Below, one piece after another: positions 301-47,502 of a DNA stretch of 64,000 bases (positions within the stretch are counted from its first letter, which is position 1; each line of letters starts with the position of its first letter). The stretch spans positions 1 to 64,000 of the forward strand of contig LLCB01000047.1 in NCBI GenBank assembly GCA_001414345.1, read 5' to 3'. The translations under genes were made by a program, and so were the position numbers. The stretch is from Hymenoscyphus infarciens (taxonomy: Eukaryota > Ascomycota > Leotiomycetes > Helotiales > Helotiaceae). The notes under the pieces are model-generated. The model was not told the DNA's origin, made no database searches, and was given only the letters and a program-made list of their open reading frames with translations.

Positions 301-352
301 TTATTTTATAAGCTAAAAAGTATACTTACTCTATATACTAACTCTCTTATAT

Positions 353-6031: not shown

Positions 6032-6126
6032 AAAGTGCTTAAATAATTATAATTTAAGATTATTTAAGTACTTTAAGTACTACTTTACTAATTATATGTT
6101 AATTGCCTAATTAGGCTTAGTATCTC
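6032..6126 (+). repeat. Direct repeat copy 2 with internal hairpin
   Basis: Same word order as 209-300 (GCTTAAATAAT, TTTAAGATTATTTAAGTACT, then AATTATAT, CCTAATTAG). It lies near the end of the most degraded part of the block. Confidence 0.55.
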
Positions 6127-6554: not shown

Positions 6555-6661
6555 CGATTTACGATTTACGATTTACGATTTAGCTCTAAAGAGCTATATA
6601 CTTAAAAATCTAAGCTTTATAATTTACGATTTACGATTTGCGATTTACGATTTACGATTTA
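6555..6661 (+). repeat. 7-bp minisatellite (CGATTTA), two arrays
   Basis: Four perfect CGATTTA units lie at 6555-6582 and five (one CGATTTG) at 6627-6661, with a diverged spacer between. The reverse complement (TAAATCG) recurs briefly near 22515 in the other RIP block. Short terminal tandem repeats are one way some LINE elements end; that is only a possibility here. Confidence 0.75.
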
Positions 6662-7560
6662 GTCGATTCCGACTTTTAGTATATACGAGATACCGTAGTT
6701 AATAAACGTCGTTATTTTTTTATTTTTTTTTAAAAAAAAGTCTCGTTTATACTTATAGACTATTTAGAGGTCTAGGGTTATTCTTATAATATAATATATT
6801 TCTTTAAGTTGTAGATTTTAGAAGTAGAAAATCTTTTGGAAATTATAGTTTATTGTTTTTTTTAGTAATTATAGAGTGATTAATTAGATTAGTACGTTAT
6901 ATATTAAGTCGTATATCTAGTAAACTAAGTTAAGCTAAGTAAATAATATATCCTATTTAAGAGAAAGAATAATAGAATAAGAAAAGTAATTTCTTAAAGT
7001 CTCGAAGAATTGAAAAGTATAGAGTAGTAGATACTTCTCTAAATCTCGTTTTCTTAAGATATAAAATAAATCTCCTAGACTAATATAAAAGAAAGACTAA
7101 AATCCTTTTAAGGAACTTTCGCGGTTAGTTCTAGACTCTAGCGAATTATTAGTAAATAAAGTTTAAGAATTATATAATAGCTACTAGGTTCTATATTTAG
7201 ATCTTCTATATTAATAGACTTTCAGAGTTATAGAGAATACTATAAAAACGGATATATATATCTCGTTCTCTAGTAAGTTAGCGAAGTATATAATACTTTA
7301 TAAAGTACTCTAGAGTTATAAGGGTTGTGATTTTCGTAGACTCTATCTGTATTTTAGAGGTAAAGCGTGGTTTTTAGGCTCGCTTAACTCGTTAGCTTTA
7401 GAGCATCGACGCCTTTCTAGAGAGGATTGCGAATTAGAAGCTTTTGGAGTATTATAGGCTACTAAGGCTGAACCGCTTATACTTTTGACCGCGTCCTTTG
7501 TAAGTCTTTTTACTTAAATTGATTTAAAATTAGAGAGGTTGGGATACTTGAGATTCAAAG

Positions 7561-8073
7561 TCTTCTCCGATCATCGGCGTTCGTTGATCTAGGAGGTTGG
7601 GCGTATGATATCCCCGTCCTTTTTTTTTTAGCTAAGACTTTACGAGTAAGCTATTAGTAAGCCACGGGTAAGCTTTGTCCAGTTATCCCAGGAGGTTGGG
7701 AGAGTCGCTTTGTGAGTGAGCTGTTCTGCAACGGGTCAACTGCCCACCACCAACTGCCATGAGTGGAGTAAGCCAGTAGTTAACAGCTAATAAGCTGGTG
7801 GTATGGGTGGTTATAGAATGAACCAGCCACACACGTGTTATTTACCCCTCTATTACCCCTTTTGTAATGAGGTGCAGAAGACTGTTTGTTGTAATTGAGT
7901 CACCGTTGGCTTGCATGAGCAATGAGAGCATGGAGATACAAAAGAAGAATCACCTATACAGAAAAGCGTGAGCGGTTCCAACAACTCTCAAAGTAGAGTT
8001 TGGTAAATTCAGTGTGTCCCTAGTGGTTGTCTCTCAACCTCAACACCGCCTCAGAGCAAGTACCCCAACTCTC
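7561..8073. other. Intergenic, downstream of TEL2
   Basis: Normal base composition. No coding frame with family resemblance. It holds the 3' flank of TEL2 and the transition out of the RIP block. Confidence 0.6.
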
Positions 8074-16593: not shown

Positions 16594-19320
16594 GCTCTTA
16601 TGGAGTAGTGGAGAGGGGGTGATCATTGGAGTGATTTGTACATTTTGATAGAAAGAAGAAAAGAAATTCTCAATGATTGGTGGGGCGCATTATTCTCCTT
16701 TCTTATGTTTTTTTGTTGTACATTTGTGAGTGTGCTGGCAGTTGTTTAGTTAGCATCTTCTCTAGCATATGATACAAGGGGTTTAGAAGAATTTCTGCTT
16801 TTATGTTTTGTCTTGGTGCTTTTATTTCTTGTTTCCTTTTTAGGAACTCTGACTTGGGTGATTTTGGACACCACTTAGAGGAAAATACGTGAGGCGGGGG
16901 CGAGGATTTCGTCGTAACTTGATTTTCAGAGAGGGATTTTTAAAAGTGTTTGTTTATTGAAATTCTTTAGTATGTCGTTCGGTTCATCGTCACTTTAGCA
17001 TCTGGAAAGAGGTTCCTTGAAAAGTTTCGAGTAACCTATTTCTGCGACGGTTTATAAGAGAAATGGTATTTTCGGATCTTCCTTTTCTTAGTAAGAACTT
17101 ATCTAGATGCTTCTTAGAGCCGAGTTCTACGAATGCTCATAAGCAGAGACTATCGTCGCAGGTTTGTTTCTTTTATGGGAATCTTTGAGAGAGGTCTCGT
17201 GTAACAGAGTTCTTTGGCAGTTCGTTGAAGTTTGGTATCAGCCTATCTTCGTCCTTTTCCGAGAATTTATTGAGAAGTTTTGGTTGCTGTTGTGATACGG
17301 GGGAGTGGAGTCACTTCAAAATCGCCCCAAATATGCACATGAGGACCCCGGAAGGGAATAGAAAAACACTACAAGGTGTAAAACGGCTTTCTACCTCGCT
17401 TACATTACATCTCAAGCCATAACCACAATATGTGAGGATCCTGTTTCCATTTTCGCGGCGGACCGGGAGTATACGGCGTCCTCAATCAACTAGAATCAGG
17501 TAGAATTGGAGTAAGGAGTAAGGCGAGCAGCTCGCCCCAGCGAACCCATCGGATGACAACCCTCAACATTTCGTATCTCCGCCAGCCACCGCGGCAAAGA
17601 AGCCACGGTCACAGAGTCACTAGTCAGCCCCAGAGCCTCTGACCCAACCCCAGAAGTGCGTCGGAAATATTTTTCAAATTGGGTACCGCCGTCTGGCGAG
17701 GACGAGATTTTGGAGTAGATGGCAAAATGGATGGGCCTTGACAATGCCGAGACCCTCGAAGCATACCTGGAGTCGGAAGCCCTACTATGAAGTCCTTCGG
17801 AACAATGCCATCATACCATGCCTTAACGAGAACCTCAAAGACCTACATTGGAGAGTGCCCGGGCAGCTCCTAGTTGGTTTGAATATGGAAACAAACGCAA
17901 ATGTTCGACACCTGTGCCAAAGTTCAAGAGCTATGCTCGCAATGATGTTCATGGCAAAGACATGAGTAATTTGCGGTAATGCCGATGGCTCCAGACTGAA
18001 CGGCCCTCTTCTCGACGATACACCAGCTTTTCATAGACAAGTACGCCATGTTATTGTGTGGTTGCACTCTATAAGTCCACAGGGGTGAAATTTCAGTATA
18101 AGCTTCTTGGGGGCGAGGACTTTGGGGGCCATGATGTGTGTTATGATACTGTCAAGAATAAAATTGGCGAGTAGGCATTCAATGGGCATAACTGGATGGT
18201 TTCGCTGGAACACATGATGATATAATAACGATGGAAGTAATGCAGGTGATACAAATTAATGAACTCACTCAATTAGTATACTCTCTTCGATGAGTGGTGG
18301 CTTTGCTACAATCTACACTATATATGTTCATAGCCAAGAGTCGATTTTTCTCGTTCGATGTTCCTTCTTTGAAAGAAACTAACTGAAATAGCTCGAATAA
18401 TAACGTTTTTCAGTGTTTTTAAAGAACAGTAATTGGTAGTCTTCCTAAAAGTAACTAGTAGCTAACTCATAACTACCCTTTCGGGCCCCGGACCTAGTAG
18501 TAGCTTACTAGGTGACTTCTTAGGCGCCAAAAGTCGTTGCTACTGTTTCGTCTTACTCGACATTTAAAGTTTTACTTACGACTCAACTTTTCGGCCCCTA
18601 TTAGACCTTTGTGAATGACGATCATTAACTCCCAAGTAAGTTTTGAGTACTAAACTGGCCGATTCCCTGAAGTGCCTCGCGAGAGGAAAACAAAATAAGG
18701 TGTTCTAACTCTCTAACCTAGAAAATCTCAATCTGTGTTCCTGCCCTCGGCACCTACAGTACAACACCTTTACAAGAACCTCATTCACTGAAATCATTTG
18801 AAGTTTAATACAAAAGTATGCCAGGCGAGAAGAAGATGAAAATGTAGCTCGATCAAAGCAGTGGATAAATTTGCCAATATACCTCTAACAGTCTTCACCA
18901 ATACCCGATGATATTGCTTCAAGCTCTAAGCATAACAAGAAGCAAAAATTGACATCATATTTGTTTAATTTCAGCAGCTAAGTCATGAAACAACAATCGC
19001 GGAACCACCTAATTGACAGTTTATGCCTTCATCTCTAATTAGTATACCGCTTAAAAAAAGAGGTATTTCAGACAGGCATTTTCGTCAGTTAATTTTCACC
19101 ACTGCCTATCTTTGAGTGTATGCGAGTTTGATGCCAATATTTAGGATTACTGTATTACAACGCAAAGCTGAGTTTTACGAAGATTTTGTTTTACGGAGAG
19201 TCTGGAAATTGTCCCCTGTTCCTCCGTCAGTAAAAAGGTAAGTCAAAGTAGAAGTAGAAGTCCCGTACCTTTAGAAGAGTGTGAAACGCGCTCTTAGAAG
19301 GGTCTTAGTTCTAGTAATTT
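16594..19320. other. Gene-poor region
   Basis: The first 200 bp is nuo49 3' flank. Short open frames on both strands around 17496-17965 have protein-like wording but no recognised family and no consistent exon chain, so they may be a decayed gene. The rest (18240-19320) is moderately AT-rich with no feature I can support, and it grades sharply into the RIP block at about 19320. Confidence 0.5.
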
Positions 19321-20350
19321 CATTAGTTCCTAACTGCTCTTTATAGAAAACAGTTTTCTTTTAAATAGTTTAGATAATAAAGTTATTTAAGCATTTATAT
19401 GATATAGATAGTAAGTAAGAAGATTTAGTAATAAAAAGTCTTTGAAATAAGTTAGCTATTAATAACTTTTAGTCTAAATCTATAACTTTATATATCTAAC
19501 TCTTGTAATTATTCGAAATCTTTAGTAGTATATAATATAAAAAGATACTATATCGATTTAATATTTTTATATAAGTACTAGTCTTAAAAGATTAAACTCT
19601 CTATAGCCTCTACTAACTAAACTATCTCCTTCTTATTCTACTAAACCTAGTAGTAATCTAAGTATTCGCTAAAGAGTTATAATACCTTTATTATTACTAG
19701 AACGTCGAAATAAATATAAGTAAACAAAAGAGGTCTATTCTATATAGTTAAATACCTAGGATTATTTTAATAGATATAACTTGTTTTAATACTAAAGCTA
19801 TATTATATACGTTACGCTTTTTATTATAACTTTAATAAGTAATCTCTTCTAATATAAGAGAAAATTATTTAAGACTATAATTATTTAGAGCTCTTTATAT
19901 AGCTTACTCTACTAAGAAAGAGTAGTTTATCTTTATAGTAATAATCGTAATTATTCTAAACGTTCTTATAGAATTTCTACTAAGTTCTCGAAATTAATTA
20001 ACTTTAATAGAACGTATATTAAGATATAGTTTAGCTAGTTAGCTTATTAATACTATTACTTCTAATAGTATATCGAATACTTATAGAAACTACTTATTTA
20101 GAAAGCGAAGACGAAAGAATTTAGTCTTACTAAAATAACTAAGTTACTTTATAAAGTTTAATAACTAATTTAATTATATTATCTAAGTATAAATATATTA
20201 GAGATCTAGTTATAATAATTCTCGCTACTATTATAGTTGTTTTTAATTATATTATATCGATAGTTATTATAATAATAAGCGAAGAGATATAGCGTTATTA
20301 ATTACTACGATTAGTAGTAACTATAGAATATAGAATAGAGAATAAAGCTA

Positions 20351-21663
20351 TGACGGTTTCAGACCTGTCACGTGACTCCTCACCGCCTAGCAGAATCCTA
20401 TATATTAGTATCGTTTAGAGCTGTCTTCGCTCTTTATCTTTAGTTTTCGTGTTAATAACTATAAATAGACTACTTCTCTACTCTACTCCTACCTTATTAT
20501 TATATTAAACTAAAGGTTACCTTTCTTATTCTATAAAGGATTTAAAATATATTAAGCTCTTAATCTTACTTCTATTCTAGCCTCTCTACTACTAACTCTA
20601 CGACCCTCTTTTTTTAAATAGCTTCTAAATATCTATATATACGCTCTAAGACTCCCTTTTCAAATAGCTTCTAAATAACTACGTATATACTCTATAATCC
20701 TACGGCTTTAGTCCTCTTTATAATACTAACCCTCTTTAAATAGCTTCCTAGACCTCTCGCTAGCGACTCTTAAATTAATACTAAGCTTAAGACCCCTCTC
20801 TAGCGTCTTTAGACCCTCTTCTAGTATCTTTGGATCCTCTCTCTCTCTAGCGTCTTCGGACTCTCTTCTAGTATCTTTAGATCCCTTCCTCTAGTATCTT
20901 TAGATTCTCTCTCTCTCTCTTTAAATAGCTAGCATTTAACTATAAAATGCTAATAATAGACTCTAATATCGTACGCTAGGTATATAACTTTAGCTCTCTT
21001 ATTAAAAAGAAATATTAATACGCTTATATAATTAACGCTTCGATAAGATAGCTTATCTAGCTCGTTATTAGTTAATCTAAGCCTCTTACTAATAAGGAGC
21101 CTCTCTACGCCTCGACGAGAGTAGCCTTTTAAGCAGACCTTCTTACTTTTAGCTATATTATTTTCTAATAACTCTCGAAGCCTCCTCCTTCTCCTCCTCC
21201 TAATATTACGAAAGCTGATATTACGAAAGCTCTTAAAGCCTATACTTTAGTAATCGACAAAATCGTAGAAGTATATACTAGTTACTTAGCAGATTATATA
21301 GATTAGTATTAGAGAGGGAACATAGAGAGTTTTAGGTAACCTAGCGTATAGCTAGTATCTTACTACTCTTATAGAGCTAGTATCTCACAGCTGCCTTAGT
21401 AGATAGAAGAGCAAGAGTATAAGCAGCTAGTAGATATATAAATAGATAAGTATACTAGTTTCTAGAGCTATAAAGCTCGAAGGCAAGCTCTACTAAAGAG
21501 AGGGAAATATAACAGTTTTAGATCTATTACGTAACTCCTCACTACCTAGCAGAATCCTATATATTAGTATTATTTAGAGCTGTCTTCGCTCTTTACCTTT
21601 AGTTTTCGTATTAATAACTACGAATAGACTACTTCTCTACTCTACTCCTGCCTTATTATTACA
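20351..21663 (+). mobile_element. Short LTR retroelement (TRIM-like), RIP-altered
   Basis: Two direct repeats of equal length, 20351-20504 and 21510-21663 (154 bp each), differ only by C/T and G/A transitions. The left LTR still begins TG and the right one still ends CA. AAAGCTA precedes the left LTR (20344-20350) and follows the right LTR (21664-21670), a target-site duplication of 5-7 bp depending on where the ends are set. A purine tract (AAGAGAGGGAAA) sits just before the right LTR, as expected for a polypurine tract. The internal 1.0 kb has no readable gag or pol, so this is a non-autonomous element of about 1.3 kb. Strand is inferred from the purine tract. Confidence 0.85.
20792..20930. 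repeat. C/T-rich minisatellite inside the LTR element
   Basis: About five diverged units of 22-30 bp built on CTCTCTAGCGTCTTCGGACT / CTTCTAGTATCTTTAGATC. Paired variants (GCG/GTA, CGG/TAG) are again transitions. Confidence 0.65.
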
Positions 21664-23620
21664 AAAGCTATAGTTTATAGATTTTAAATTATAAATTACT
21701 AGATACTTTAAAAAACACTTATTTCCTAACTACGCTCTATACTTATACTCTCTCTCTTTTACTTAAGTAAGTTCCTAGAGTACGTCTTTCTAACTACTTA
21801 TCTCTCTTCTTCTATTAATCTTTATTACTCTTAGTAAATAGAATTAGAAAAGATAAGAATAAGATAGAAGTAAGAAAAGTAAATAAGAAGTAAAAAAAGA
21901 GAATAGAATAGTAATAAAGTCTCGTAATTACTCTATCTATTTAAGTGTTTTATATATTCTCTTCTACGCTTATATTAAGTGTAGTATAAAGGCTTTATAT
22001 AATTTCCTACTTTTAAGATCTCGATTAATTTCTCTTCTTCTTCGTCTTTTTATTAACTATAAGAATAGAAGAATTCTAGAAGTTAAAGAAGTATAAAATA
22101 GAAGCTAAGAATTAGTAAGTATATAAGCGTTAAGAAAGTATAGTAAGCGTATATATAATATATTATACTATTAATAAACGAAAGTATAAGCTTTCTAGAA
22201 GTAATAATTTATAATTAAAAACTTATAAAACTATAGCGCTCTACTCTCTAATTTTTCATTTTATAAGTAACTTAGAAATAATATTAAGTAAATTAAAAAC
22301 TACTCTATTTCTAAAAAAAAGTATATATATCTTAAGAAAGAGATATAATAAAATCACTACTTTAAATACTCTTATAGAAGTATTATTAGAGAAAATAGTT
22401 TTTCAAATAAGCTTATATAATAGAATTCTTTAAGTATTTATAAAAGACGAGTACTTATAATAGCTTAGATATACTAAACTCTAAAAACAACTAAATTATA
22501 AATTATAAATCGTAAATCGTAAAATATAAAAAGAGATTAGAATATATTTAAGCTACTAATTAGAGTAATCTTAATTTACTATTTATCTCTACTACTGTAT
22601 ATTCTCTCTTATTTATATACTCTAGTATCTTTACTCTTTACTTTCTTTAAGTTTCTTACTTCTATTTAAGTAAATTAGAAGATTCTCTTTTAGAGTACTT
22701 TTATTTTCTATTTTCTAAAGAAAAGAGAGAGAGAAAGCTTTAACTAAAAAAAGGCTTAGATTATAAAAAAAGTAGATAAATTTAAGCTTAACTTATAACT
22801 TACTATATTTTAGTAGTACGTCTTTTTTTTAAAAAGTTTATTTATTATAAATCGAGTATTAATATTTATTACTAAATTATAGGAAAAGACGAGTACTATG
22901 TACTAATTTTTTTAAACTTAATACTATTCTATATTTATTTCTTACGACTTAGTTTTCTAAGAGCCTATTTAGTTCGCGCTCTTAATTCGCGAATCTCTAT
23001 ATAAAAGTTAATTCGAATTAATTTAATTCGTAAACCTTCTTTTAAACTATAAATCCGTTTAGTAAGAAGCCTCTATATATAAATCGAATCACTTAAATCA
23101 AGCCTTAGTACTATATTCGTAAATCTCCTATATAAAAAAGCTCGATTCGTAAATACTACTCTAGAGATATATTTATAAATTAAACCTTTAATTCATTCGT
23201 ATCTTATACTACTATAGTATATCTACCTCCCTTGTTTAGTATAGTAACGCTATACTATTCTTAATCGCAGATATACTATAGTTGCTAGCGTAATAGCAGC
23301 TATATTAGTAGCTCTCTTTTTTAAGAATAACTTCGTCAAAAGGCCTTAGTATACTTCGAAGCTTTATAGAGAGTATTATTACTAATATATATTTTTAGAG
23401 ATTTCTTTTTAGTAAGTAATATAATATACAATTACTAAATAGTATAAGAATTCGATTTAAGAATATCGATTCGATTTATAAGCGAACAAAAAGTAGCCTA
23501 TACTAGCTCGATTCGACGAATAAATCAAGAGTTTAAAATATAAACTAAATAGGCTCTAAAACCTCTTAAATAACTTAACTCTCTTATAGTATATAGAACG
23601 AAAATACTTTATTCCTTCTT

Positions 23621-24340
23621 TATATGTTTTAGTAAGTACTTTTAAGAGATTAGATTTTTTGAAAGAGTTCGTATAATGAAATTATTTTAGGTTTTATAAT
23701 AAAAGATGCGTATTATTAAGATTTTATCTAAAGAGAGTATCGTCGTATCTCTATTTCTTTAAACCTAGTTTTCCCAAAACTAATCCAAACAACTGGAATA
23801 GCCGGTAGCATTTTAGACTGAAATACTCTAGGTCTCTCTTATATTTTTGTAAAAGTGATATCAAAAGAAAAGGTTTTCTGAAGTGGTTTATATAATTGAA
23901 CTTTTCGATGATTTATAAGAAAAGAGCTTTATTATTAAGAATTCATAAAAGGGAAGCTTTATTATATATATATATATATTCCTTTGAAGTTAGTTTCTCT
24001 AACACTCTAAAACACTTAAATTTTCAGGTTATTTATTAACTGAAAATGCGTTTTTAAGTGCCTTATCCGTATTATACAAGTTATGAAAGTACTGCCAAAG
24101 CAAAAACAATTTTCGAAGTGGTTCTATTAAGCATATTTTTAGGTGTATTATGAGAAGAGGGCATTATCCTAAGTACATTCCTTTGAAATCAACTTCTCTA
24201 GCCCTCTTAAACACCCAAACTCCCCGATCATTCATCAAATGAAAAAGGATGTGAACGCCCCATTTCTACTTTACAAATTTGCGGAAGTAACATCAAAGGA
24301 AAAGGTTTTTCTGAAAAGGTTGCGCGTAATAATTACCTCC
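23621..24340. repeat. Tandem ~200-230-bp repeat next to the 601-aa gene
   Basis: Three full units and one partial start at about 23621, 23845, 24074 and 24270. Each opens with AAGTxxTATCAAAxxAAAAG-type text, then a TTTTCTGAAGTGGTT-type segment, a TTATAAGAAAAG-type segment and an ATTCCTTTGAA/TTCTCTAxC core. Units nearer the gene keep more C and G; units nearer the RIP block have those positions as T or A. The unit seems not to encode protein. Confidence 0.65.
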
Positions 24341-24460
24341 GACCGTTCATCCACCAGGCCAATTGTCGTTATCCCCTTTGATTTCAAACAATGTATGAGG
24401 AAAACCTGATTCTGAAATGCATTATTCAGAATGTTTGGAGTAATGTAAATCTGTGATGCC

Positions 24461-26266
24461 TCATTGTCCAATTTCACTTCGAATAATGGCTGGAGAAGTG
24501 ATTTCTGGAGAGGAAGGAGCGGTGACGACGGATGGCTGATGAAAATTGGTATTTGCTGCAGGTTCCGGGGCTTTACCTTCATTTTCAACCTCTTTTGGCT
24601 CAGAAAACACATCTGAATCATCAGAAATGCCTTGAATAACGCCAGAAAAGCCCTCCGAGACTGTATTTTCGAGGCTTGGGGTATTTGGTGTCGTTGGAGT
24701 AGCAGAAGCAGTAGCAGAACAGCCATTTCCAGCAGCTGGATGGTGTACTTTTGGTGCAGTACTATCCTCAGAATCACCAGAAGTCATCATAGCTTCAGCA
24801 ATACGCTCAGAGCGTCTTGAATGCGCATTTGTAGCTCTCATTGAACGTCCTCTAGCACGCATAGCTCCCTGACGAGAGATGGGTTGCTGATTTTGGTTTT
24901 CCGGGCCACCAGAACTAATATTGAGGTTTTCAAACTGAGTTAGAGACTCAAGGTTGCTATTAGGTGCTGGGACAGGAGATTGACGGACATTTCGAGGTTG
25001 TGTGGGAGTTTCCGGGAACTGTGTTGGCTGAAATGTAGGGGAGGAAGGCACATGAGCGTTGGGATAGTAGCGACTGCCGATTCCGTAGGTGACTGGTCTG
25101 TATGCACCTCCGTATGCACGGTTTGCTACGTATGCAGAGACTGGTTGTTGTGCTTGCACATTTCCCCAGCCTGCTGGGCCTCGAAATTGCCATGAAGGAA
25201 TCTGTGCGTACGGTGGTGCTGGAGGAACCGAAGACGTGGGAGTTGGTTGATTTCTATCGGCAAGGGGTCGGGAAGGTGCGCCTGGTGTAGAAGGGCTCTG
25301 TATGATTTGTTCTTCGGGCGTGCGAGGGGACACAGAGGAAAATGACTGCTGGGCTGCTCTGCGAGCTTCCTCAGCCTCTTGCCTGTATCTCGCTGCTTGA
25401 ACAAAAACGGGCAAGTTACTGGTTCCTCCGAATGGACTTCCAACACCGAAGGCAGGAGCGTTGTTACTACCAGGGTAATTGGAGGGCCCAGCAACACCAA
25501 AACCCGGCCCAGCAACATAATTGCTCTGCAGTCCATATTGGGGTTGCAGTCCCAGAGGACCGGGACGATTGTTTCCGTACCGGAGCTTCTCATGATCCAT
25601 CTTGATGAAATCCTTTCGAGTCCAGGCGCCCCAGAACTCAGCTCTTGTATTCTCCTCGCAGGCTGGTACGGGTGGAAGCTCATGAATATCCCGGAGACCA
25701 ACAGGAAGCTCAATAAACTGGTTATCAGGCGTGTCTGGGTTGAACAAGAAGAGATTGCCTTCATGATCATAGTAAAGTCTCTGGTCTGGGCGATCATGTA
25801 CATATTGTCTCGCCCAGACCCCAGGAGATGGTTCTTGAGACTGGATTTGTTGCTGGTTATAATATTCCACAGCAATACCGTCAGAAGCGTTGTTGATGAG
25901 GTAGCTTATGTATGCATTCATAATCTCTGCATCATTTGGACCCCCGAAATGTGTTTGTCCGGACTGGTCTTGTTGCACCCAATTGTATTGTGGTCGAACC
26001 GCTGCATCCTGAAGGTCAGGGAATACAGTGTCACATTTGCATTTTCCTTCTCTGTGCATTGTCTTGTGTTCATTCTCCTTGTTCAAAACCTCAGCGTTCC
26101 AAAGAACCCGAAAACAAGGGTGGCAGACTGCGGATTGGTGGTGTGGGTGCTCGGCTGGGAAGGAACAGACTGGGAAACTTTGATCTGCTTGGGTCGTTGG
26201 GCATTTTACAAGCCATGGAACAGAACAGTGTCCGCACGAAAAACCAAGGAAGTGCTTTACACACAT
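24461..26266 (-). CDS. Hypothetical 601-residue protein, Cys-rich N-terminus
   Basis: Single open exon. I do not recognise a named family. The N-terminus (MCVKHFLGFSCGHC, then CPTT, FPVCSF, VCHPC) has paired cysteines and a histidine, suggesting a small metal-binding module. Another Cys pair (GKCKCD) follows. Residues about 100-240 have a globular look (YISYLINNASDG, RLYYDHEGNLFLFNPDTP). From about 260 to the end it is low-complexity, rich in Pro, Ser, Gln, Asn and Gly, with an RGR/RRSER basic patch. There is no signal peptide or membrane segment. The open frame continues 110 nt upstream of the ATG to an acceptor (CTACAG at 26377-26382), so the first exon boundary lies in the 5' leader or, less likely, in further coding sequence. 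The gene sits between a tandem repeat (3') and a mini-exon array (5'). Confidence 0.75.
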   Translation of the reverse strand: MCVKHFLGFSCGHCSVPWLVKCPTTQADQSFPVCSFPAEHPHHQSAVCHPCFRVLWNAEVLNKENEHKTMHREGKCKCDTVFPDLQDAAVRPQYNWVQQDQSGQTHFGGPNDAEIMNAYISYLINNASDGIAVEYYNQQQIQSQEPSPGVWARQYVHDRPDQRLYYDHEGNLFLFNPDTPDNQFIELPVGLRDIHELPPVPACEENTRAEFWGAWTRKDFIKMDHEKLRYGNNRPGPLGLQPQYGLQSNYVAGPGFGVAGPSNYPGSNNAPAFGVGSPFGGTSNLPVFVQAARYRQEAEEARRAAQQSFSSVSPRTPEEQIIQSPSTPGAPSRPLADRNQPTPTSSVPPAPPYAQIPSWQFRGPAGWGNVQAQQPVSAYVANRAYGGAYRPVTYGIGSRYYPNAHVPSSPTFQPTQFPETPTQPRNVRQSPVPAPNSNLESLTQFENLNISSGGPENQNQQPISRQGAMRARGRSMRATNAHSRRSERIAEAMMTSGDSEDSTAPKVHHPAAGNGCSATASATPTTPNTPSLENTVSEGFSGVIQGISDDSDVFSEPKEVENEGKAPEPAANTNFHQPSVVTAPSSPEITSPAIIRSEIGQ

Positions 26267-26376
26267 CCTTGCGAGTTTTGTTGGGTATTGGGTGTGTATA
26301 TTGAGATAGGGGGGATTCGAAGACGGAGAGAGGACCTGGAAAACGCAGGAATAGGAAGTATGATCTGCTATCTTGT

Positions 26377-29300
26377 CTGTAGTGTGTTAGTTAGATGTTC
26401 TGGTAATTCTGGGACAAATAAAGAAACTATTCAAGGCAGTTTGGAATATGGTTCTCCAACACATCCTTCGATAATGAATTTGATCACCAGAGAACATTTG
26501 GAAGAATCAGGCAATGGAGTCTTTGATTCTTCAAAATCTCCTCGAACAAATATTCTGGCTATCTCAGACTGCTTCACACACTCTTGGGAGTAGAAACAAC
26601 CAAAAAGGAAGGCGCAGTCCAGCAGAAAGGGGATTTGCCATAGGCGAGCTCCAATAAGAGGGGAAGAGAGAACGATTACGGACCTTCGGAGAATGGAATA
26701 TGAACGTCTTCGAAAGAAGAGGTCAGTTAAATATTCTTTGCAGATGTTATGAAGATGAGGAAAGTGTTTAGGATGTTTCTCAGAACGTCTAGGGCTTGTT
26801 TGGGGGAGAGGGTCGGAGCGAGTACGGACCTTGAAATTGAGAACCTGATCTATCTATATTATCAGTTAGTCATACGCTCTAGAGAGGGGTAAAGATTGAA
26901 CGAAATCGGATGAAAACGTGCTGAGAGGGCCAGAAACGTCATAAGGCGTGGGAGAAGAGGGGTTACCAACCTTTGAAGTGCTGGTCTCCTCGTTGAAGAG
27001 TATCAAGATATCAGAGACTGTATCGTGAGACTTGGTTAGTCATCAATTATTCGCAAGTTCTTGAAAATTCTTGGGGTGCAAGAAAAGCACAAGATTTGAG
27101 GATGTGGGTGACTCGGCAAGAAAAGAGGAGGGGAAGACAACGTACAAACTGCTGAAACTTTTCCCCAAGCCTTCGAAACACCGGTATCTGTAATTCTCAC
27201 CTACTTGGTCTCGTCAGCTGGTGTTTCTGGAAGAACCGTGTAGCAAATTGGGATAGATTGGGGATCATTTCCGCAGGTATGTCATTGCAGCAAGGAGGGG
27301 AGAGCAGAATAGCGGTAACGAACCCTCGACCTGTGCGATTTCTTTTTCAAGGGCGAAGATATGGAATTCTTCCGCTGTTCGGATTGGTCAGTTGTTATTT
27401 CTGAGTTGGAGGCGTGACAGAGTTGAGTGTATATTTGTTGAGACGAGGTTCGAGGAGTGCAATAACGGCGTGGATGGGAGGAGAATGGAGGTTACGAACC
27501 CTGGGACAACGAGCCGCCTCTTGTAAGTTCAATGCTTTGGAATTATCCGCTATTTAACCAGATTAGCTCTCGTGTCTTGATGGAAGTTGTGACAGATTGA
27601 GATGTAAATTTTGTGGTAGGGAGTTGAAGGATGTTTGAAGATGTGCGATATCGACGAGGAACAAGCGGATAGAAGCAGTACGAACTCTTAAAAGGTCCGC
27701 TTTATTGGGAATGAAAAGTTTTCAGGGTCTCTATGACTCAGTTTTGTCAGTTGTTTGTTGGCTGTTGGACGTTGTAGCGAAATAAGTGGAATATCTTGAC
27801 GGGGGAAGTCAGAAAGGAGAGCGATAGCGGAGTGTTGAGGTGGGGTAATAGCCTTTGGCAAGTGGCTTGTATTTGCTTTACACTTACGAGGAATATCTTC
27901 AAGTACTAGTAGCTCTGTGCCAGTGTATCAGCCTAGTTCTTAAGAGTTTTTTGTGATTGGAGAAGGAGTAGTTGGGTATTCTCGGAGGAGAGACTTGGTA
28001 AAGTTGGATGCAATAACGGAGAGTTGGAGAAGAGATGAGGGGTATCGATTCTCGAGTCTCGAGAAGTTACTCGTATTGCTTTAGACTTACGAGAGGGACT
28101 TTCTGAATTGGAAGCTGTCTGCCAACAACTTTATCAGTCATCATTCTTGAGAAATTGTTGTAAGAGAAAAGCAGTTGAGAAGGAATGGCCGGGTTGCACG
28201 GAACGAAACAAAGGATGCGATTGCATGCGATAACAGGGGTTGAGAGGAAAGAAGGTGTGCTGAGTCTGGAGAACTAGGTTCATAGTGCTTTTGACTTACA
28301 ATACGAGAGATTTCTTCGAGTGTGAGAGGTATCTACTGCCGTATCAGCCATCATCCTTGAGCGGCCGTACTAAGGACAGGTAGTTTGAGAAGGAGTCGTT
28401 GAACTGTTAAGTTGTATTGAGGGGAGAGGATGACGAAATGTTTTGCGATAGCGGGGGGTTCGAGAAGAGAGGAAGGTAATCGGGGTTGAGAATTTGAGTG
28501 GCATATTGGCAGCTCTGTCGACTTACCAAGATGGAGGAACACCTCCAAGGGTGGAAACTGTTTGAGAGAGAGTTAGTCGTGGTTATTGGGCGATTGAGAA
28601 AGGAAAAACGGGCCGAGAAGCAGCAGATGTGTTCGGTGAAGGAGCGTATGGGGAGAAAAGGAGAAAAGGAGAAGAGGGGTTGTGGTGAAGTTCGAGGTAT
28701 TGCGATATTGAAGGGCAGACGAGGGGTATCGAGACTTGAGACTTCGTGTATCCGCTGTCTACTTACAAAGAATGCCTTCACAAGAGTGGACTGTCTGCAA
28801 CAGTATCAGCTATTGCTGTGCCGTGATCACTAGAAGAGTAAGGTGGTTGAGGAGAAGTGGTTGAGTTGTGTTGAAAACGGGAAGGGGGCAAGGGCGTAGA
28901 GGAGTAGAATAAATAGAGGGTGTAAGATGATGCGATAGCGGAGGGCACAAGGGGATAAGAGGGGTCTGGGTATGCGAAATCGCTTGGTACTATGTGCTTT
29001 CTACTTACGTCGAGTGCTACCTCCGCCGAAAAATACTTTTAATGTTGTCAGCTAATTATGACGGGTTCGTTGGGGGAGAGAGCCTGTTGAAGAAATCGTT
29101 GTGTTTTGCAGAAGATGCAGAGAGTTTTTGAGTGTAAGATTGGGAAGAATAATGGGTGGTGTAAAGTGTTGTGGTAGAGACTAAGATGAAAGGCAGGTCC
29201 GGGGCTGACGATTTGTCTTGTGTGCATTTCCTACTTACAGAAAGCTGCTCTATATGGGTAAAACCTAGTTTGTGAGCTGTTAGTTGCTGAGACTAGCACT

Positions 29301-30017
29301 CTTTAGAGGGAAGCGACAGTTGACAAATAGCGCTTGTGTTTTGCGAAGAGAGGAAACAGGATAGGAAGTGCAAGGCTTTGGAATAAGGGGGGATAACGGA
29401 CAGGGAGAACGGTGACGAACCTCAAGAATCTGCCAACTCCTTGCGTCAGATAGACCAAGAAGAACTGTATCCAGGTTTTCAGTCAGCCAATTTCCAGAGT
29501 TTTTGATACTCTTGTTTGAGGAATCGATCGCAGAGATAACTGCCATTGTGTTTTGGGTTCCTTTGAAAGAGGAAAAGAGGGGGAATGGCCGAGGGGCGAG
29601 CGGGCTCCAAGATGTGCCTTGATGGAGGGTAATTAAGGACAGGGTGGGGACCTACAGCAAGAGTTTCTCTTGTGGTGGCTTACCGGCCAATAATCCAAGA
29701 TCTGTGCGGCGGGTGATCAGTTACTGTTGATCGAAAAGTATTTTAGGTGACGACGAGGTATTATCGTGGTGGGGACGTTCGTGGAAGAAGGGGAGAGGGT
29801 AAGATGATTGCGACTTCGTGATTTCGTGACTTGGGACTTGGGAGGGAGCGTCGCTTGAAACATACCGTGGATTTAACCTGGTCACGTCAAGATTAACTTG
29901 GAATACTTCTATCAGGGTGTCGGGGGAAAGAGAACCGCTCATTGAGGCTCTGCCATATTGGACGGGTGAGGGGAAGAGGTGTGGAGTCGCGAACCTTGGA
30001 GGGTGGAGTTGCGAACG
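26377..30017 (-). other. Array of 18 mini-exon/intron modules (probable spliced 5' leader)
   Basis: On the minus strand, 18 times in a row, there is a CTRAY branch point (CTGAC, CTGAT, CTAAC or CTAAT; the 29866 module has only TTGAC), an AG acceptor, a 12-55 nt putative exon and a GT donor. Proposed exons: 29995-30017, 29866-29877, 29684-29701, 29421-29464, 29239-29264, 29009-29035, 28767-28794, 28527-28557, 28300-28332, 28091-28118, 27888-27914, 27686-27699, 27500-27549, 27324-27374, 27146-27200, 26971-27017, 26830-26853, 26684-26707. A last intron (26377-26683) leads to the exon holding the 601-aa ORF. Donors come in blocks: GTAAGT for seven consecutive modules (27887-29238), GTTCGT for the three 27323-27685, GTCCGT for the last two. 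No proposed exon contains an ATG, and no single reading frame runs through all of them with GTNNGT donors, so a non-coding leader or lncRNA is more likely than coding sequence. Exact acceptors are uncertain in some modules. Confidence 0.6.
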
Positions 30018-31789
30018 CTATTCCTTACGCGCGATTAGCAGATGTTTTGTCTTGTAGATGCTCTGCAGTCGCCCTAAACTGCCAGTGGCTCTTCTGTGGC
30101 TCTGCAATAGGATGATGGGGTTTACGCGCACCTTTTGAAGGGGATGGGGATGGTGGTGGATGATCGTGGTGGAGGTGTTTGTGGTGTGGGAGGGACAGCA
30201 GTTATTTTAAAATTCAAGATGATTGTGGGTGGCTATGGCTCAGTTACGCTAGTCTTTTTAGGGAGTGCAGAAGACATATCCAGGCATCGGTGCGACTACT
30301 CTACGTGGACTTGCTCAGCGGGCTCGGCGTGGTTCATTATTGGGAAAAGTCACTGCTTGCTTCTCAAGCTTATGCATCAAGTTAAACAGTACTTGGATTC
30401 TGTTACGGGGCTCTGCAAAAGTTGTGATGGGAACCACACTATGCGTGGCTCAATGGAGGTTGAGGGAGGAGCAAACATTGTTTGTGTATTGTTCGAAGCA
30501 CCATCTTTCTAAAGAATTCTCACCTAGACTATAGAAACGTGAGAAATCAGTTCCAATTACTTACTATTTTTCTGGAGGAGTGGAGGTTGCTACAAATAGT
30601 TACAGAGATCTATTGAGTTTCAACATGGATAGTTTAGTGTTCACAGAAGAGGAACTTGTGTCAAAACCGTCCAGATATACTTCATAAAAGTTCTGGCGTT
30701 CGGCTAATTTGGGGGCTTTAGGGGGCTTAACCGAAATTTTGTGACTGGACACAAGTTAGAAGGGTTTTGGCATTTTTGAGGTGCAAAGGGAAAACCTTAA
30801 CCTTCTAGAGCATAGTAGGAGTGAAATGGTGGATAAACTAACTGACTTTGTTAGTGAGTTATGCAAAACTTGGGCATGGTTACAGCTATGAAAAACTGCA
30901 ACAGGATATTTTCATGTTTTTAGATAAAGCATGTGACATAACGTTGAACCAAGTTTTCCAACACAGGGCTGTTGTTTGTAGTTATTTTTATGAATCACAA
31001 TATCTGTGAGTTGGAATAAAGTTTGTGACTCAAAGTGTGGTGGTGTGTTACCTTCTAAAGGGCAGATGCATGCTAAGTTGTTTGGCTAGAATGTGAATCA
31101 CGACGACAAAGTGCCAAGTTTCTGTGCAACCTCAAGGGGGAATACCACCAACTTTTATACCCGCCAGGATTCAAAAAAGGGTCATAACTGTTTTCCCATT
31201 GGCTATCCCTTGATGACTGAGGTCACCTGAGGAAGAGTTTTCAGCTGTTGCTCTTTGGGTGTAAGGTTCTTTAACTTATTCAAATTCATGAATGGTTTTT
31301 GAAAAAGGATATTCAATAATGGAAGTTGCTGGAAGAGTCGTAATATATGAATCCTCATTGAGGGATTGACTGATGTAACAGAAGTTAGTTTGCTTGAAAT
31401 TGTGGATAATTTCAGAGAATATTAACAAATAAAAGATGCCAAGATTATTTAAGAAAGATGAAGAATCTTAACAACGCAGAGTTTATTTGGGTATTTAATT
31501 CAGCTTGAAAAACAGTGATAAGTGAGGGATTTAACAGAAAGCAACGATGTTGGATAGCAAGGCCAAAGGAAAGTAATTGCTGTAAGGAGAGTTATTTCGT
31601 TTGGATTTAAAAAGAGCCAGACAGAACACAAAGACACGAACGATGATAAGACTAACAAAAGCTCGCAAAGATACGTGGTTGATTTGAATTTCTAGTTGGA
31701 CTTGAGAAAGTGTGAAAAGTGAATGATTTTACTGGTGTAGGATTTGTCCATCTGGTGACAAGCATCGGACTTTCCACAATAGTGGTAGC
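30018..31789. other. Non-coding; possible start region of the mini-exon transcript
   Basis: No supported gene. On the minus strand CTTCAAAAG followed by GTGCGC (about 30126-30140) could be the donor of a first exon. About 31080-31250 has text resembling an LTR edge but no partner copy was found. Confidence 0.4.
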
Positions 31790-32260
31790 CTAAACAGAAA
31801 ACGGGCTACCCTAGACAGCATTTTATCTAGACGACATATTCGCAGGAGTGTAAAGCTTCAACGATAGATATACTCTACTAGAGAACCAGCTGCTCCTAAG
31901 AATCTGATAGGCTAGGATGAGATTGTCATTTAAAAAGCTAGAATTGTTTATAGTAGAAATAACAGCACTTAGGGTAATCCATCACTTAGGAGGAAGGGTA
32001 GTGATAAATATAATAAAGAGGGATAAGATACGAGATTAGCCACTACCCCTTAACTCTACTAGAGTTAGACAATTCCTAGGAGTAGTAGGCTTTGTCCGAC
32101 GCTTTATTAAGAATTACATAGAGATAAAGATACCACTATCAAGACTTATAGGCAACGTCCTATTTAAATGAGGGAAACTAGAAGCCGTGTCATTCCAACT
32201 CCTTAAAGATAAATGTGCAGCAGCTATCGAGATGCATGGTTGGGACTTTCGACTTCACCA
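31790..32260 (+). mobile_element. Ty3/gypsy pol remnant (RT to RNase H junction)
   Basis: Translated fragments show the RT active-site motif FYLDDIFAGV (about 31817-31846). About 200 bp further on come LNSTRVRQFLGVVGFVRRF, IKNYIEIKIPLSRL and GKLEAVSFQLLKDK, the conserved stretch after the RT palm in gypsy elements. Stops replace tryptophans (TAG before PLPLNS, TGA before GKLEAV), as G-to-A change would produce, and the frame shifts between the two parts. No LTRs found. Non-functional. Confidence 0.8.
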
Positions 32261-34513
32261 CTTATCTGATCATGAAGCTATTCCGAAAGCGGACATTTGC
32301 TGGCTTTCTCAAAAATCTAACCTCTTTTTATTAAACTCACGCCCTTGAATTTCGAGAACTCTCTCCGCACACTTTCGTAAATTCTACTCACTTTGGTCTC
32401 CTTCACACTCTACATCTCGAGAAGATTGATCAACTAAATTATCCTGAAACCTGCCTCGTTTGCGTCAATTTTATTATAGGCCCGCGCTTTCTTTGTCCTT
32501 CTCCAATAAGGCGAAAAGATAAGAAATAACAAAAGTTCTTTCTTATGTAGATATCTTGACTTCCTGAAATTAAGACAACAGGGCGCCGTTTCTGGGGGAT
32601 CTATCTAAGCTTAAAAACTATATCTCGCTACCTGGAGTTTTTCTGGTTCTATTCAGGATCTCTATGGAACTTTGGATACAATGAAAGGTTAGGAGCTAAG
32701 TATCTTATATTCAATGAGATTCAAGAAGTAGAAATAACCCTAAAGGTAGAGAGAACTGCTGGTGGATTTCAGTGATCTCCGAATTCATTATTTCCAAGAG
32801 TTGGGAATGAGTTGACTAATTCAGTGATATTTTCAGATCAAAGTACCAGAGTATAGGTAGCCTCTCAATGCGAAATCATTCGTGATATACTTGATGTTCG
32901 TGAAACATAGGGAAGGTATGACCCTGGACCTGTTGAAAGCTTTATTCATTTACGGAAAATACATGAGGCCTAGACGATCCTATCGTGCCCGAGTGAATCA
33001 GTGGCTCAGCTCACTAAATTCTGTCCAGAGATCATAGCCAATTCGGTCGTCCCAGGTTTACCAACTGTGCGATCCAAATGTCACCTGAGGGAAAGGACAC
33101 GGCCGGTGATATCGAGAATCGCATCCGACAAACTTTTGTGTTCTTTCGGAATCGTTTCAAAAGCTGCTATCGAATGAATTATTAGTAGGCATGGGAGATT
33201 TATGCTGGTCCAATCACCTGTTTCGACTGGTAATTGTAAGTTGCATCTTAACTGTTTCTTAAGCGCTGCTTAGGTCGAATGTTAGCAGTGGCTGAAGTGA
33301 CGCGAATGTGTTGGTTCTGTAGAGAAAAGAGTTCGAGAAGTGTTTACTAATTGCCCACCGCAAGACTAGGGTATCCTTCAGGCCCCTTCCCCTATTTATG
33401 CAAAATCCTAACTCTCAACAACGCAACCATTTTATGAAAACCTTATGGGATTCCTAAGTTGCGACTAGTTAGCCTCCCATTCGCGCATAGGAAGTTAGTT
33501 TAGTGTTTCTATGTTGTGGCTGGGAACCACGCTGGGGTGTTATTATTTTGGGTTCTTGCGTTAGGGTATGCGGCGAGTGCTGGCCTGGCGTCCAAGTACG
33601 GTGTTGACCTCGCTGTAATTCAGGGCTCAGATACCTTCTCATGGGCTGGTATCGTCGCCTCTTACAAGGCTGACACAGCCTACTGCCATGTAGTCTCTAC
33701 TTCTAATGTGCTATCTCTCTACTAAAACGGAAAAAAGTCCGTATTTCCACCTTCTAAAAAGCGTGTTAAATTTGAAAGTAAACCACGACACGGCAATCCA
33801 GAGTAGCCAGAGTTTGCTGTAGCACTATCTAGCTATTAATGAGTTATTCTTAGTATTTTTATAAGCTCTTTTAGAAATACGGTTGGTCTTTTGGTGAGTG
33901 CGGCACCAGGTGAGAAATACGAGGCTTTGCACTCTAACTTTCTTACCCTTTCCAATTAAATAGCTATTTAGAGAGATACTTCACTTAGAGTACAGTCAAC
34001 GTTCATCGACGTACTATGTATATTCTAAACTTACTTTCCAAGTAATAAATGAAGCCTTACACTGAAAAGATGTAGCTATGTTATATCAAGAGCGTATAAT
34101 CGTATGGTTTCTTCTCCGACTATTATAAGAAGAATAAACACATACATTGAAACACACGAAAAACTCCAGAGTAAAAGAAGTGTCTATATTTCACCACAGT
34201 GGTCTTCTCCCCTTCGGCGCAAAGTATCTCCTCAACTCCAACCATCCTTTCGCAGAACCCCAACATTCCCGAGCGGCGAGCACCCATGCCCGTAAACAAG
34301 AAACTCTCGCAGAGCATTGCCGACCCCATAGTAAAAGGAAACAGTTACCCCGTCGAGTCCAGGTTGTCGACTTCCACGATGTAGTTATTTTGAATAGATA
34401 ATTCGACGACAAGGATAAAGTAAGTGGAAAGTAGAGTGTGAAATCGACTTCATTTCAAGAACGGGCTGGACAACACTAGATCTCCTGACATCGGTTGATG
34501 CTCGCACTGTGTT
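32261..34513. other. Gene-poor, no supported feature
   Basis: Short open frames only (for example 33516-33725, 34104-34412), none with family resemblance or usable splice chain. Probably decayed mobile-element sequence; not classified. Confidence 0.4.
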
Positions 34514-44186: not shown

Positions 44187-47100
44187 ATGGCATCAACAAT
44201 GGACTCACACATGCCTCAACATGAGGATTTGAATTTGATGGGATTGCACGAGTTGGACTCGCATCTCATGGAATTTGAATCGTTGGGAAGGGATTCGTCT
44301 ACCCCGGGTGCCATGTCCAACTCTGCTTACGGAGATGCCATGTCAACAACAGAAAATCCATCCACAACTATCGTTGTTGACTCGCCTAAAGAGAATTGGG
44401 CAAGAAAAAGTCAGCCGGAAATGTTACTAAATGGCCAGGGTGCACATTCAAGGTTGGTCTCCCGCCATCTGATAACCTCCATCGCCCCTTCCAGATGACC
44501 TTGAAAAGCACCTGATACAACTTTCACCAATTGTAAGATTGCCTTTCAATCAACTCTATTAACTCACACTCTTTAGAGCCGAGCCCATATTCAAGTCCGC
44601 GGCAATATCGGGTGGCAACATACATCTGCGGCCGGAAAGCGCCCGCGATTCCATGGCCTCTTCCATGACTACAGACCTCGACGATGCTTCATCGGCCCTT
44701 TCGTCGATATCAAGCAAAGCAACATCTCCCACGGGTTTTGAGGCCACTTTGAAGGAATCTGCAAATGGTACTTCCTCGGCCGCAGCTGGAAAACGACGCC
44801 AGAAATACGAGATTCGCCCGAAAGTTTCCATACCAACGGATCTCACAACTGCAGAATATGCAAGACAATGCATATCAGCTGCGGAGTCGTCTCGTTTGAA
44901 CCCATATGGAATGCATACTGAGGAACATTCACTGTTACGAAAACACCTCACCCATCAGCAAGTTACGACGTACTTGAACATACGAAATGGGATCTTGAGG
45001 TTGTGGACAAGAAACCCTCTCATTGGTGTTATGCGAGATGAAGCAATTGGCTGTGCCAAAGACCCTCGATGGTTTGATGTTGCGAGCGTGTGCCATGAGT
45101 GGCTTGTACGACGTGGCTACATCAACTATGGTTGTCTGGAACATCGAGAAGCCACTGCAGAAAAAAAGAAGCAACGAGCTGTCAAGCGGAAAAGAAAGAC
45201 GATTGCCGTAATTGGAGCTGGTATGTCTGGTTTAGGTTGTGCAAGGCAACTTGAAGGTCTTGTTTCTGAATTCGAAGCTCGATTTCGAGACTTGGGAGAA
45301 GATCCACCACGTATAGTTGTCTTGGAAGGACGAGACAGAATCGGTGGTAGAGTCTACTCACGGCCTTTCAGATCCAAACCAGCTTTCCCAACACTCAGTT
45401 ACGGAAGCCGACATACGGCGGAGATGGGAGGCATGATCATCACTGGCTTTGATCGGGGAAACCCTCTAAATATTATTGTCAGAGGTCAGTTGGCTTTGCC
45501 ATACCATGCCTTGAGATCAGAGACGACCATTTATGATGCAACAGGAAAGCCTGTGGATGCCAATCGAGACCAGTATGCGGAAAAGCTATTTAATTACATC
45601 CTTGACCGTGTCAGCGAGTACAAATTCAAACTTCCCGTTCCACCAACCGTCAAGGGAGATAGAGATCTTCTTGATGCCGGTCGAGAAGTGAGCGGAGAGG
45701 GAGCCAAAACGATTAGCGAGATCGAAGACAACCCCTCAGCTGCGGAAACAGTCGCGCCTAAGGCAAAAGAGGTACAAATGATCCCTGTATCTTCGGATAG
45801 GCTGACTGGCAGAGCTCATCTTGAGCCTGGAATACATGGTGTCCACACGGCGGCTTACAAGGCAAACGAAATCGGTTGGTTGTTGCGACCCGGCGTGGGA
45901 ATCGAACATGACTTGGATCTCGAAAACGCCGTCAACTCGAAATATGCCACCCTTGGCTCTGTTTTTGACGAAGCGATCCGTCAATACACGAGAATCGTTG
46001 ATTTCACTCCTCTTGATCTGCGACTCATCAATTGGCATGTGGCCAACTTGGAGTACAGCAACGCAATTACTTGTAACAAATTAAGTTTGGGCGGTTGGGA
46101 TCTTGATGCTGGTAACGAGTGGGAGGGCAAACACACAATGGTCACTGGAGGTTATCAGCAGGTCCCAAGAGGACTACTCAATTGCCCTCAACCTCTTGCT
46201 ATCCGAAAGAAGAGCAAAGTTAACAAGATTACCTACAGTCCCGAGCTGGGTGTTTCCCCATCCAGCATCGAATGCGAGGACGGAGAAATTATCGAGGCCG
46301 ATTACATCGTGTCATCGATCCCACTGGGTGTTTTAAAAGAACAGAAGATCACATTTCAGCCCCCTCTACCGGACTGGAAACAAGGCGCCGTGGATCGAAT
46401 CGGATATGGTGTATTAAACAAAGTGGTTTTGGTGTATCGCGAGGCATTTTGGGATGAAAGTCGAGACATTTTTGGAACATTGCGAAACCCAACCGATCGC
46501 TTTAGTTTGGATCAAGCCCATTATTACACACAAAGAGGTCGCCTATTTCAATGGTTCAATTGTACCAGTACATCTGGTCTACCAACTCTGCTAGCTCTTA
46601 TGGCTGGTGATGCCGCTTTTCAAACGGAGAAGGAGTCGAACGAGACAATCATCGCTGATGCAACTTCCGTTTTGAAGACCGTCTTTGGAGCTTCGGTACC
46701 ACCTTCTCCTATGGAAGCAGTAGTTACACGTTGGGGCCAAGACGAATTTTCCCGAGGTAGTTACTCTTACACCGGTCCAAACTTTCAACCTGATGACTAC
46801 GAAACTATGGCCCGTCCTATTGGCAACCTCTTTTTCGCAGGCGAGCATACTTGTGGAACTCACCCAGCCACTGTTCATGGTGCATACATCTCAGGCTTGA
46901 GAGCTGCATCTGAAGTTTTGGAATCCATGATTGGTTCAATCGAAATACCCGAGCCCCTTGTCCTACCAAAAGACTCTTCGTCAAAACGAAAATCCGAGGC
47001 CTTACAAAGTCCGAAAGACCCAAAACAAGCTCGCATTGATGCTTATGAGATTGAGGTCTGGAATGCGATATGGGTAAAGTTCGGTGACCGACCATGGAAA

Positions 47101-47502
47101 CCCGAAAACAAATATGCAAATCCATATCGGATGTATAGCAAGGATCAATGGGACGAGGCAAAGCGGAGATGCGAAGAAGGCAGAAGACCCGGAAAAGGAA
47201 AACCCATTCCCAATGAGGTCAAGAAGATGGTGACGAAAATGTGGAAGGACGCTTCAGATGAGGAGAAGAAGCCTTACAACGACCGAGCCGATGTGCAAAA
47301 AGCTGCTCATGCTGCTGCTGTCGCAGAATACAACATCAAAGCTGCGAAGTGGGATCAAGAGGCTGTTGCTTTTAGAGATGAATATGTGGCGGCACATCCA
47401 TACGTTCCGGATCCTGATGAGGAGAGTTCAGTAAGGAAACAGAGAAGAGCGAAGCGTGTTAGTGGTTATGCTGAGGATTCCGCTTCGGATGTGGAAGCTT
47501 AA
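44187..47502 (+). CDS. lsd1: Lysine-specific histone demethylase, LSD1/HdmA type
   Basis: Reconstructed as join(44187..44452, 44577..47502): 3192 nt, 1063 residues; the intron is GTTGGT..TAG, phase 2. Domains in order: an acidic/Ser-rich N-terminus; a SWIRM domain (about 182-274: EYARQCISAAESSRLNPYGM .. HEWLVRRGYINYG); a FAD-dependent amine oxidase with the dinucleotide motif VIGAGMSGLGCAR (about 300) and VVLEGRDRIGGRVYS; a FAD-closing motif FFAGEHTCGTHPATVHGAY (about 837-855); and a C-terminal HMG-box region (about 910-1025: WKPENKYANPYRMY .. VKKMVTKMWKDASDEEKKPY). SWIRM, amine oxidase and HMG in one chain is the known arrangement of filamentous-fungal LSD1 proteins. Its role is flavin-dependent removal of methyl groups from histone H3 lysines in the nucleus. 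The oxidase domain has insertions rich in charged residues. Start is uncertain between 44061 and 44187. Confidence 0.92.

Follow-up and report, generated by a model that had tools for sequence, protein, structure and literature searches.

What is encoded by a run of splice signals that repeats 18 times ahead of a single large open reading frame (ORF) in a fungal genome? The question is raised by contig LLCB01000047.1 of Hymenoscyphus infarciens (assembly GCA_001414345.1), of which positions 1 to 64,000 of the forward strand were analyzed; these 64,000 nucleotides (nt) are the window referred to below, and all positions are counted in it. On its minus strand, an array of putative introns separated by very short exons (mini-exons) precedes an ORF of 601 amino acids (aa). 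The explanation that we tentatively prefer, with chances a little short of even, is that the locus is a protein-coding gene that has gone unrecognised, is restricted to its lineage and has an exceptional exon-intron structure.

The mini-exon array and its tandem core

An earlier note on this DNA had described 18 consecutive modules, each with a donor, a branch point and an AG, and all were recovered as an uninterrupted minus-strand chain. The 18 donors were located exactly where they had been placed, and all of them read GTNNG[TC].

Donor first bases, minus strand: 29994, 29865, 29683, 29420, 29238, 29008
Donor first bases, minus strand, continued: 28766, 28526, 28299, 28090, 27887, 27685
Donor first bases, minus strand, continued: 27499, 27323, 27145, 26970, 26829, 26683

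When the acceptor was defined as the first AG at least 7 nt past the branch A of CTRAY or TTRAC, it could be read in all 18 introns, giving intron lengths of 98-307 nt, a spacing of 8-22 nt between branch A and AG, and exons of 12-58 nt after the introns, several of them of 24-36 nt. Several acceptors are ambiguous, for instance GCAGACAG, and the last one of the chain lies 110 nt ahead of the ATG of the 601-aa ORF. The weaker TTGAC branch point, correctly reported for one module, belongs to intron 1, which also contains a CTGAT alternative. The introns are poor in G (10.6%). A GT donor, a CTRAY-type branch point and a nearby AG are the signals of Ascomycota spliceosomal introns, and the 18 introns as first drawn carry all three, with the AG shortly downstream of the branch point; judged by these signals, the array introns are likely to be spliced. 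Two of the modules as drawn are nevertheless doubtful, since they contain coding-like sequence: the AGs and branch points that intron 3 (donor 29683) would use fall within a coding-like exon at 29546-29421, and intron 18 (26683-26377) holds a coding-like stretch at 26571-26434. The array may start farther 5' than donor 29994.

The length of the chain was compared with chance expectation, a chain being defined as a donor, an intron of 60-260 nt, a branch point, an AG, a mini-exon of 6-60 nt and the next donor. The array reached 18, whereas 200 dinucleotide-shuffled versions of its region had a mean of 1.63 and a maximum of 4; the longest chain was 2 on the plus strand of the array region and at most 3 in stretches of the window clear of the array. 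The strict donor GT[AT][AC]GT was matched 12 times in the region, every time within the chain (12/12), whereas shuffles yielded a mean of 1.7 matches and chains of at most 2. As a control from the same genome, both strands of 20 stretches, each 10 kb long, were read (40 strand-stretches, 200 kb), and the longest mini-exon chain was 3 with loose donors and 2 with strict ones. Under a permissive scan allowing exons of up to 400 nt, one of the 40 strand-stretches reached 10 (loose) and one reached 5 (strict), compared with 18 and 12 for the array. The series of mini-exons with full splice signals is supported as described, being far above chance and without equal in the 200 kb sampled from this genome. 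A search of the whole assembly (65.6 Mb, 742 contigs) found the array once, at the DNA level, where diverged copies could escape. GTAAGT was enriched ahead of branch points in the control stretches while GTTCGT and GTCCGT were not (small numbers), so that it is not established that the array's second donor type is a usual one in this genome.

Adjoining modules are homologous to one another, and their similarity drops as the distance between them grows, the pattern of a tandemly duplicated exon-intron array.

27204..29420, minus strand: homologous array core, made of the introns of donors 29420, 29238, 29008, 28766, 28526, 28299, 28090, 27887, 27685, 27499 and 27323 and the short exons between them
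27458..28941, minus strand: mid-intron box, consensus CCGYTATYGCA, in 8 consecutive introns (donors 29008 to 27499)

Homology between neighbours that fades with distance indicates that the core (donors 29420 to 27323) grew via serial tandem duplication of a unit of about 200 nt comprising one exon and one intron. Repeat-induced point mutation is said to need repeats of a minimum length that units of about 200 nt would not reach, and this may explain the survival of the array in this genome. The box shared by these eight introns is exact as TATYGCA in seven of them and reads TATCGCT in the intron of donor 27887. Between 26400 and 29420, TATYGCA is present seven times on the minus strand and never on the plus strand, and 400 kb of control strand contained 28 copies of it; CG[CT]TAT[CT]GC occurs five times in the array and once in the control. 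The box could be a protein-binding site or plain inheritance from the duplicated unit, both being possible. Over the whole window, TATYGCA amounts to 17 occurrences on the minus strand (7 in the array, 10 elsewhere) versus 2 on the plus strand.

In 13 hand-picked pairs of modules, 91 of 91 invariant donor and branch-point positions were identical, and the interiors of the introns, loosely aligned, were identical at 1189 of 1781 positions (0.67, versus 0.64 when shuffled); this invariance is weak support, as the pairs overlap and the sites had been found by the same pattern. Relocation of the donor, in which GTAAGT introns would carry a decayed GTTCGT donor about 30-43 nt inside, was also considered and not retained, being suggestive at most: the best matches lay at +30 to +43 in five of seven introns, with p <0.05 in two of these five (28766 and 28090), and a third low p value, in intron 27887, was obtained at +56 and coincides with the box.

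Coding signal at the two ends of the array

Coding potential was assessed with a codon model trained on the long ORFs of the window (3961 codons, the 601-aa ORF included), and the minus strand was scanned from 31190 to 26400 blind to exon calls. Two large coding islands appeared before the 601-aa gene, at 29576-29442 (20 scan windows) and 26601-26449 (25 scan windows). Smaller islands were found on the exons ending at donors 27323 (2 scan windows), 27145 (5) and 26970 (9), and weaker ones of 1-5 scan windows elsewhere, introns and upstream sequence included.

29421..29546, minus strand: first coding-like exon, from ATG 29546, 42 codons, open up to donor 29420
26684..27374, minus strand: last five mini-exons, before donors 27323, 27145, 26970, 26829 and 26683, phase-concordant and coding-like
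26431..26582, minus strand: terminal coding-like stretch with TGA at 26433-26431, inside intron 18 as first drawn; intron end at 26572 or 26583

The first exon had a codon score of 10.0, which 2 of 5000 shuffles matched (taking the best frame of 3, for a stretch selected for its openness), and the score of the terminal stretch (26571-26434) was matched by 1 of 5000; both stretches had first been chosen by eye, and the exon-blind scan is the fairer evidence. The context of ATG 29546, CACAATGGC, is one that we take to fit the fungal start consensus. With acceptors fixed, the last five mini-exons together with the 138-nt terminal stretch form 326 nt open in one frame, the exon before donor 27145 using not the first AG but a later one. 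The score of this chain was reached by none of 5000 exon-internal shuffles, and only 0.28% of them were open in any frame (p 0.0028). When acceptors were free within a hand-made list, the score of exons 27499-26683 was reached by none of 3000 shuffles and that of the whole chain from ATG to TGA by 1 of 3000; exons 29238 to 27887 gave p 0.0087. Both ends of the array look coding-like, while its repeated middle by itself does not. The coding islands at ATG 29546 and at 26601-26449, together with the in-phase last mini-exons, point to a probable unrecognised protein gene, which probably ends at TGA 26433-26431.

Such a gene would be transcribed leftwards from a start near the TATA box at 31159, with two or three introns in its 5' untranslated region (UTR) and a coding sequence running from ATG 29546 to TGA 26433-26431. 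In the part that separates the first exon from the last five mini-exons, the unit of about 200 nt (short exon plus intron) would have multiplied by serial tandem duplication and diverged, retaining donor, branch point and acceptor, presumably under selection for splicing. The two ends would then be joined in one mRNA, in which the middle mini-exons would be either translated or skipped, and a protein would be made.

31154..31159, minus strand: TATAAA, candidate core promoter, the only minus-strand TATAAA in 31300-26200
29547..30017, minus strand: upstream donors 29994, 29865 and 29683, probably of 5' UTR introns

For this coding sequence, the third intron (donor 29683) has to end before 29546. 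On the minus strand 5' of the first listed donor, donor-like GTAAGT (30564) and GTGAGA (30523) are found with CTGAT (30550) between them. Directly upstream of the TATA box, 31278-31363 (minus strand) gave a sub-threshold match to the C/D small nucleolar RNA (snoRNA) snR75 (28.2 bits for a gathering score of 40, E 0.012).

A coding gene weighed against its rivals

Several results weigh against a coding gene of this structure. Taken alone, the repeated middle (29008 to 27499) shows no significant coding signal, either by score (p 0.27) or by stops (p 0.92). The whole chain from ATG to TGA has a single stop, which is not a significant count (p 0.065). In the two phase-consistent chains, the 326-nt one and one through the 45-nt exon described below, the choice of acceptors was partly frame-guided, making the p values of these chains optimistic; the two also differ on the frame of the exon before donor 27323. 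Under the first-AG rule, the frame of exon 1 meets a TAG in exon 2, and the coding chain requires an exon 2 of 48 nt whose acceptor is preceded by CTAAA alone. Whether read as 51, 45 or 43 nt, the exon before donor 27685 contains a stop in every frame. Its 14-nt form is open, but even with this form included, no stop-free chain through every exon was found with the listed acceptors, and 27 of 3000 shuffled sets did give one. With the 45-nt form one chain is in phase and has a single stop; without that exon it has none. This exon may thus be skipped or spliced otherwise, or the frame may be broken there, or the middle may be untranslated.

Further difficulties come from the ends. Only TTAAT and no CTRAY precedes ATG 29546, and a branch-point scan of 26683-26572 found no CTRAY ahead of the acceptor of the terminal stretch. 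A free gene-finder path to 26431 is stop-free only if the exons before donors 29238 and 27685 are omitted, as they also are in the path into the 601-aa exon; it scores 61.5 versus 177.5 for the latter path, a gap that comes mostly from the length of the 601-aa exon. Free-acceptor gene finding was not used to propose a single exon model, as its paths hinge on arbitrary costs and conflict in the middle.

The predicted composite protein has no homologue at E <= 10 (298 candidates), no match in PDB and no Pfam family at the cut-off, a match to Pmp3 (E 0.2) being rejected as below its own cut-off. The first-exon ORF likewise has no homologue at E <= 10 (1 candidate), and when the own genome was searched with the coding exons for paralogues, only the locus itself was returned. 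Since protein predictions blind to such introns would overlook a gene of this structure, the lack of homologues probably carries little weight.

The main rival is that the array is spliced but non-coding and forms the 5' leader of the 601-aa gene, its mini-exons being 5' UTR and its last intron ending at 26377, and that it may serve to remove upstream ORFs or to tune splicing-dependent expression; we regard this as unlikely, if clearly ahead of the explanations that follow.

24461..26266, minus strand: 601-aa ORF, the downstream gene, a near-orphan in homology, Pfam and own-genome searches
26377..26683, minus strand: intron 18 as first drawn, an alternative splice into the exon of the 601-aa ATG; 307 nt, two CTAAC, branch A to AG 10-14 nt

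That the array leads into this gene had been proposed earlier, and the proposal stands in part. Two CTAAC with an AG 10-14 nt on form a strong branch point and acceptor just before 26376, while no CTRAY was seen before the coding-like stretch, which keeps alive either a leader or an alternative 3' end of the array gene. Only 164 nt separate TGA 26431 from ATG 26266. The middle exons lacking significant coding signal, the stop that first-AG acceptors put in exon 2 for the frame of ATG 29546, and the permissive gene finder favouring the path into the 601-aa exon, mainly through exon length, also suit a leader. The proposal fails to account for the coding-like exon at ATG 29546 and the coding-like stretch 26571-26434 with its TGA, both of which would lie within supposed introns (3 and 18), or for the last five mini-exons, which join the latter stretch in phase. 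The 110 nt between 26376 and the 601-aa ATG have a non-coding score in all frames, as suits a UTR, yet give no link to the array. The 601-aa gene is probably separate from the array gene, an alternative splice from the array into its exon or an alternative 3' end being possible.

Within a protein-coding gene, the tandem mini-exons might be alternatively spliced cassettes between coding exons, giving many isoforms, and the stop-bearing exon before donor 27685 might act as an off-switch when included; this elaboration, a fungal counterpart of animal tandem-exon diversification, appears improbable. Equally improbable is a decaying gene or a repeat array that has no function today and whose splice signals are fossils. 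The in-frame stop in every branch-supported form of the exon before 27685 and the missing homologues of the composite protein and first-exon ORF would fit such decay, which should however have struck some of the 18 sets of signals at random; all donors, branch points and AGs are readable despite strongly diverged module interiors, and this speaks against it.

Still less credit is given to one large fusion gene, with the array coding for additional sequence at the amino terminus of the 601-aa protein. The 601-aa frame is open upstream to 26386, across the acceptor, and gene-finder paths enter the ORF in frame. Against this, the 110 nt before the ATG have no coding score, and P0001 (492 aa, source 'lgn'), the sole homologue among 7988 scored candidates (41% identity over 77% of the query), begins at the same methionine, a start that an ORF caller might pick regardless. 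No Pfam family matches the ORF at E <= 1, and a single match was obtained in its own genome.

RNA searches yielded no match above threshold. No Rfam family reached its gathering score in the window and no transfer RNAs were found; a relaxed Rfam search of 23500-34000 returned four matches, none of which reached its gathering score; a single one fell within the array, on the opposite strand (20.7 bits for a gathering score of 50). Box C/D or H/ACA snoRNAs within introns, as expected of a snoRNA host gene, were not found in this search of known families, which gave sub-threshold matches only. A host transcript for intronic small RNAs or a structured long non-coding RNA is thus very doubtful, since the repeated introns with their common box and the little coding signal of the middle exons are countered by these Rfam results and by G-poor introns for which no consensus base pair was predicted on a nine-intron alignment.

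Known systems and the surrounding window

Schistosome-type micro-exon genes of animals contain runs of very short exons, several of them of at most 36 nt, and lack known relatives. The array shares these runs and the missing relatives: several of its exons measure 24-36 nt, the last five mini-exons being coding-like and the middle giving p 0.27. It differs in its fungal host, its mutually homologous introns, its exon lengths, which are not all multiples of 3, and a middle whose coding is putative. Trypanosome mini-exon (spliced leader) arrays are tandem units with a short exon ahead of a donor, as here; in the present array a branch point and an AG stand ahead of the exons, which are hence internal, and the units are diverged, which sets it apart from such arrays. 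As to stwintrons, in which one intron interrupts a splice element of another, the array introns can be read side by side.

Among fungal cases, PMC11121469, which mentions schistosomes, describes one switch microexon of 20 nt in Xlr2 of Trichoderma virens, missed by gene predictors; the likeness is a very short fungal exon, single there and, here, part of a serial array predicted from sequence. Fungal introner-like elements (PMC4457414) are also introns homologous to one another, but in the present array the copies sit next to each other at one locus and comprise the exon as well. Near-identical copies dispersed over unrelated genes, as introners would leave, were not found by the DNA search of the own genome, which returned the locus only and which diverged copies could escape. 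Tandem exon duplication, or intron gain by tandem genomic duplication (PMC4974935), likewise involves adjacent homologous units with neighbours most alike; in contrast, the present array is fungal, and its unit, a very short exon plus an intron, is repeated in series in about ten strongly diverged copies. Among the titles and abstract openings covered by our literature search, no comparable fungal mini-exon array was found. If the junctions are real, the locus would be a fungal gene, arisen via serial exon-plus-intron duplication, whose coding or cassette exons number about 15 or more and mostly measure 24-58 nt. It would offer a test case for intron multiplication and for the definition of serial mini-exons by the fungal spliceosome, and a warning that gene predictors may overlook such genes.

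The rest of the window contains two AT-rich blocks, at 1-7000 and 19000-24000, with a GC content of 0.20-0.31 per kb. TpA/ApT is 1.4-1.8 in the AT-rich 2-kb bins (1-8000 and 18001-24000), and (CpA+TpG)/(ApC+GpT) falls to 0.05-0.23 in the cores of the blocks, ratios that we take as the mark left by repeat-induced point mutation and that make a filamentous ascomycete likely. The 601-aa gene lies immediately beside the second block, which includes a tandem repeat at 20786-20905 with periods of 21 and 47. Pfam domains were identified in 6 of 10 scanned neighbouring ORFs, corresponding to a TEL2-like protein, a ubiquitin-like activating enzyme, an RNA polymerase subunit, a 49-kDa complex I subunit, a SWIRM/amine oxidase/HMG protein and a protein kinase. 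The 979-aa ORF at 44563-47502 (plus strand) combines SWIRM, amine oxidase and HMG-box domains, presumably an LSD1-like architecture. Another tandem repeat, at 62279-62478, has a 110-nt unit present in 1.8 copies with 91% matches.
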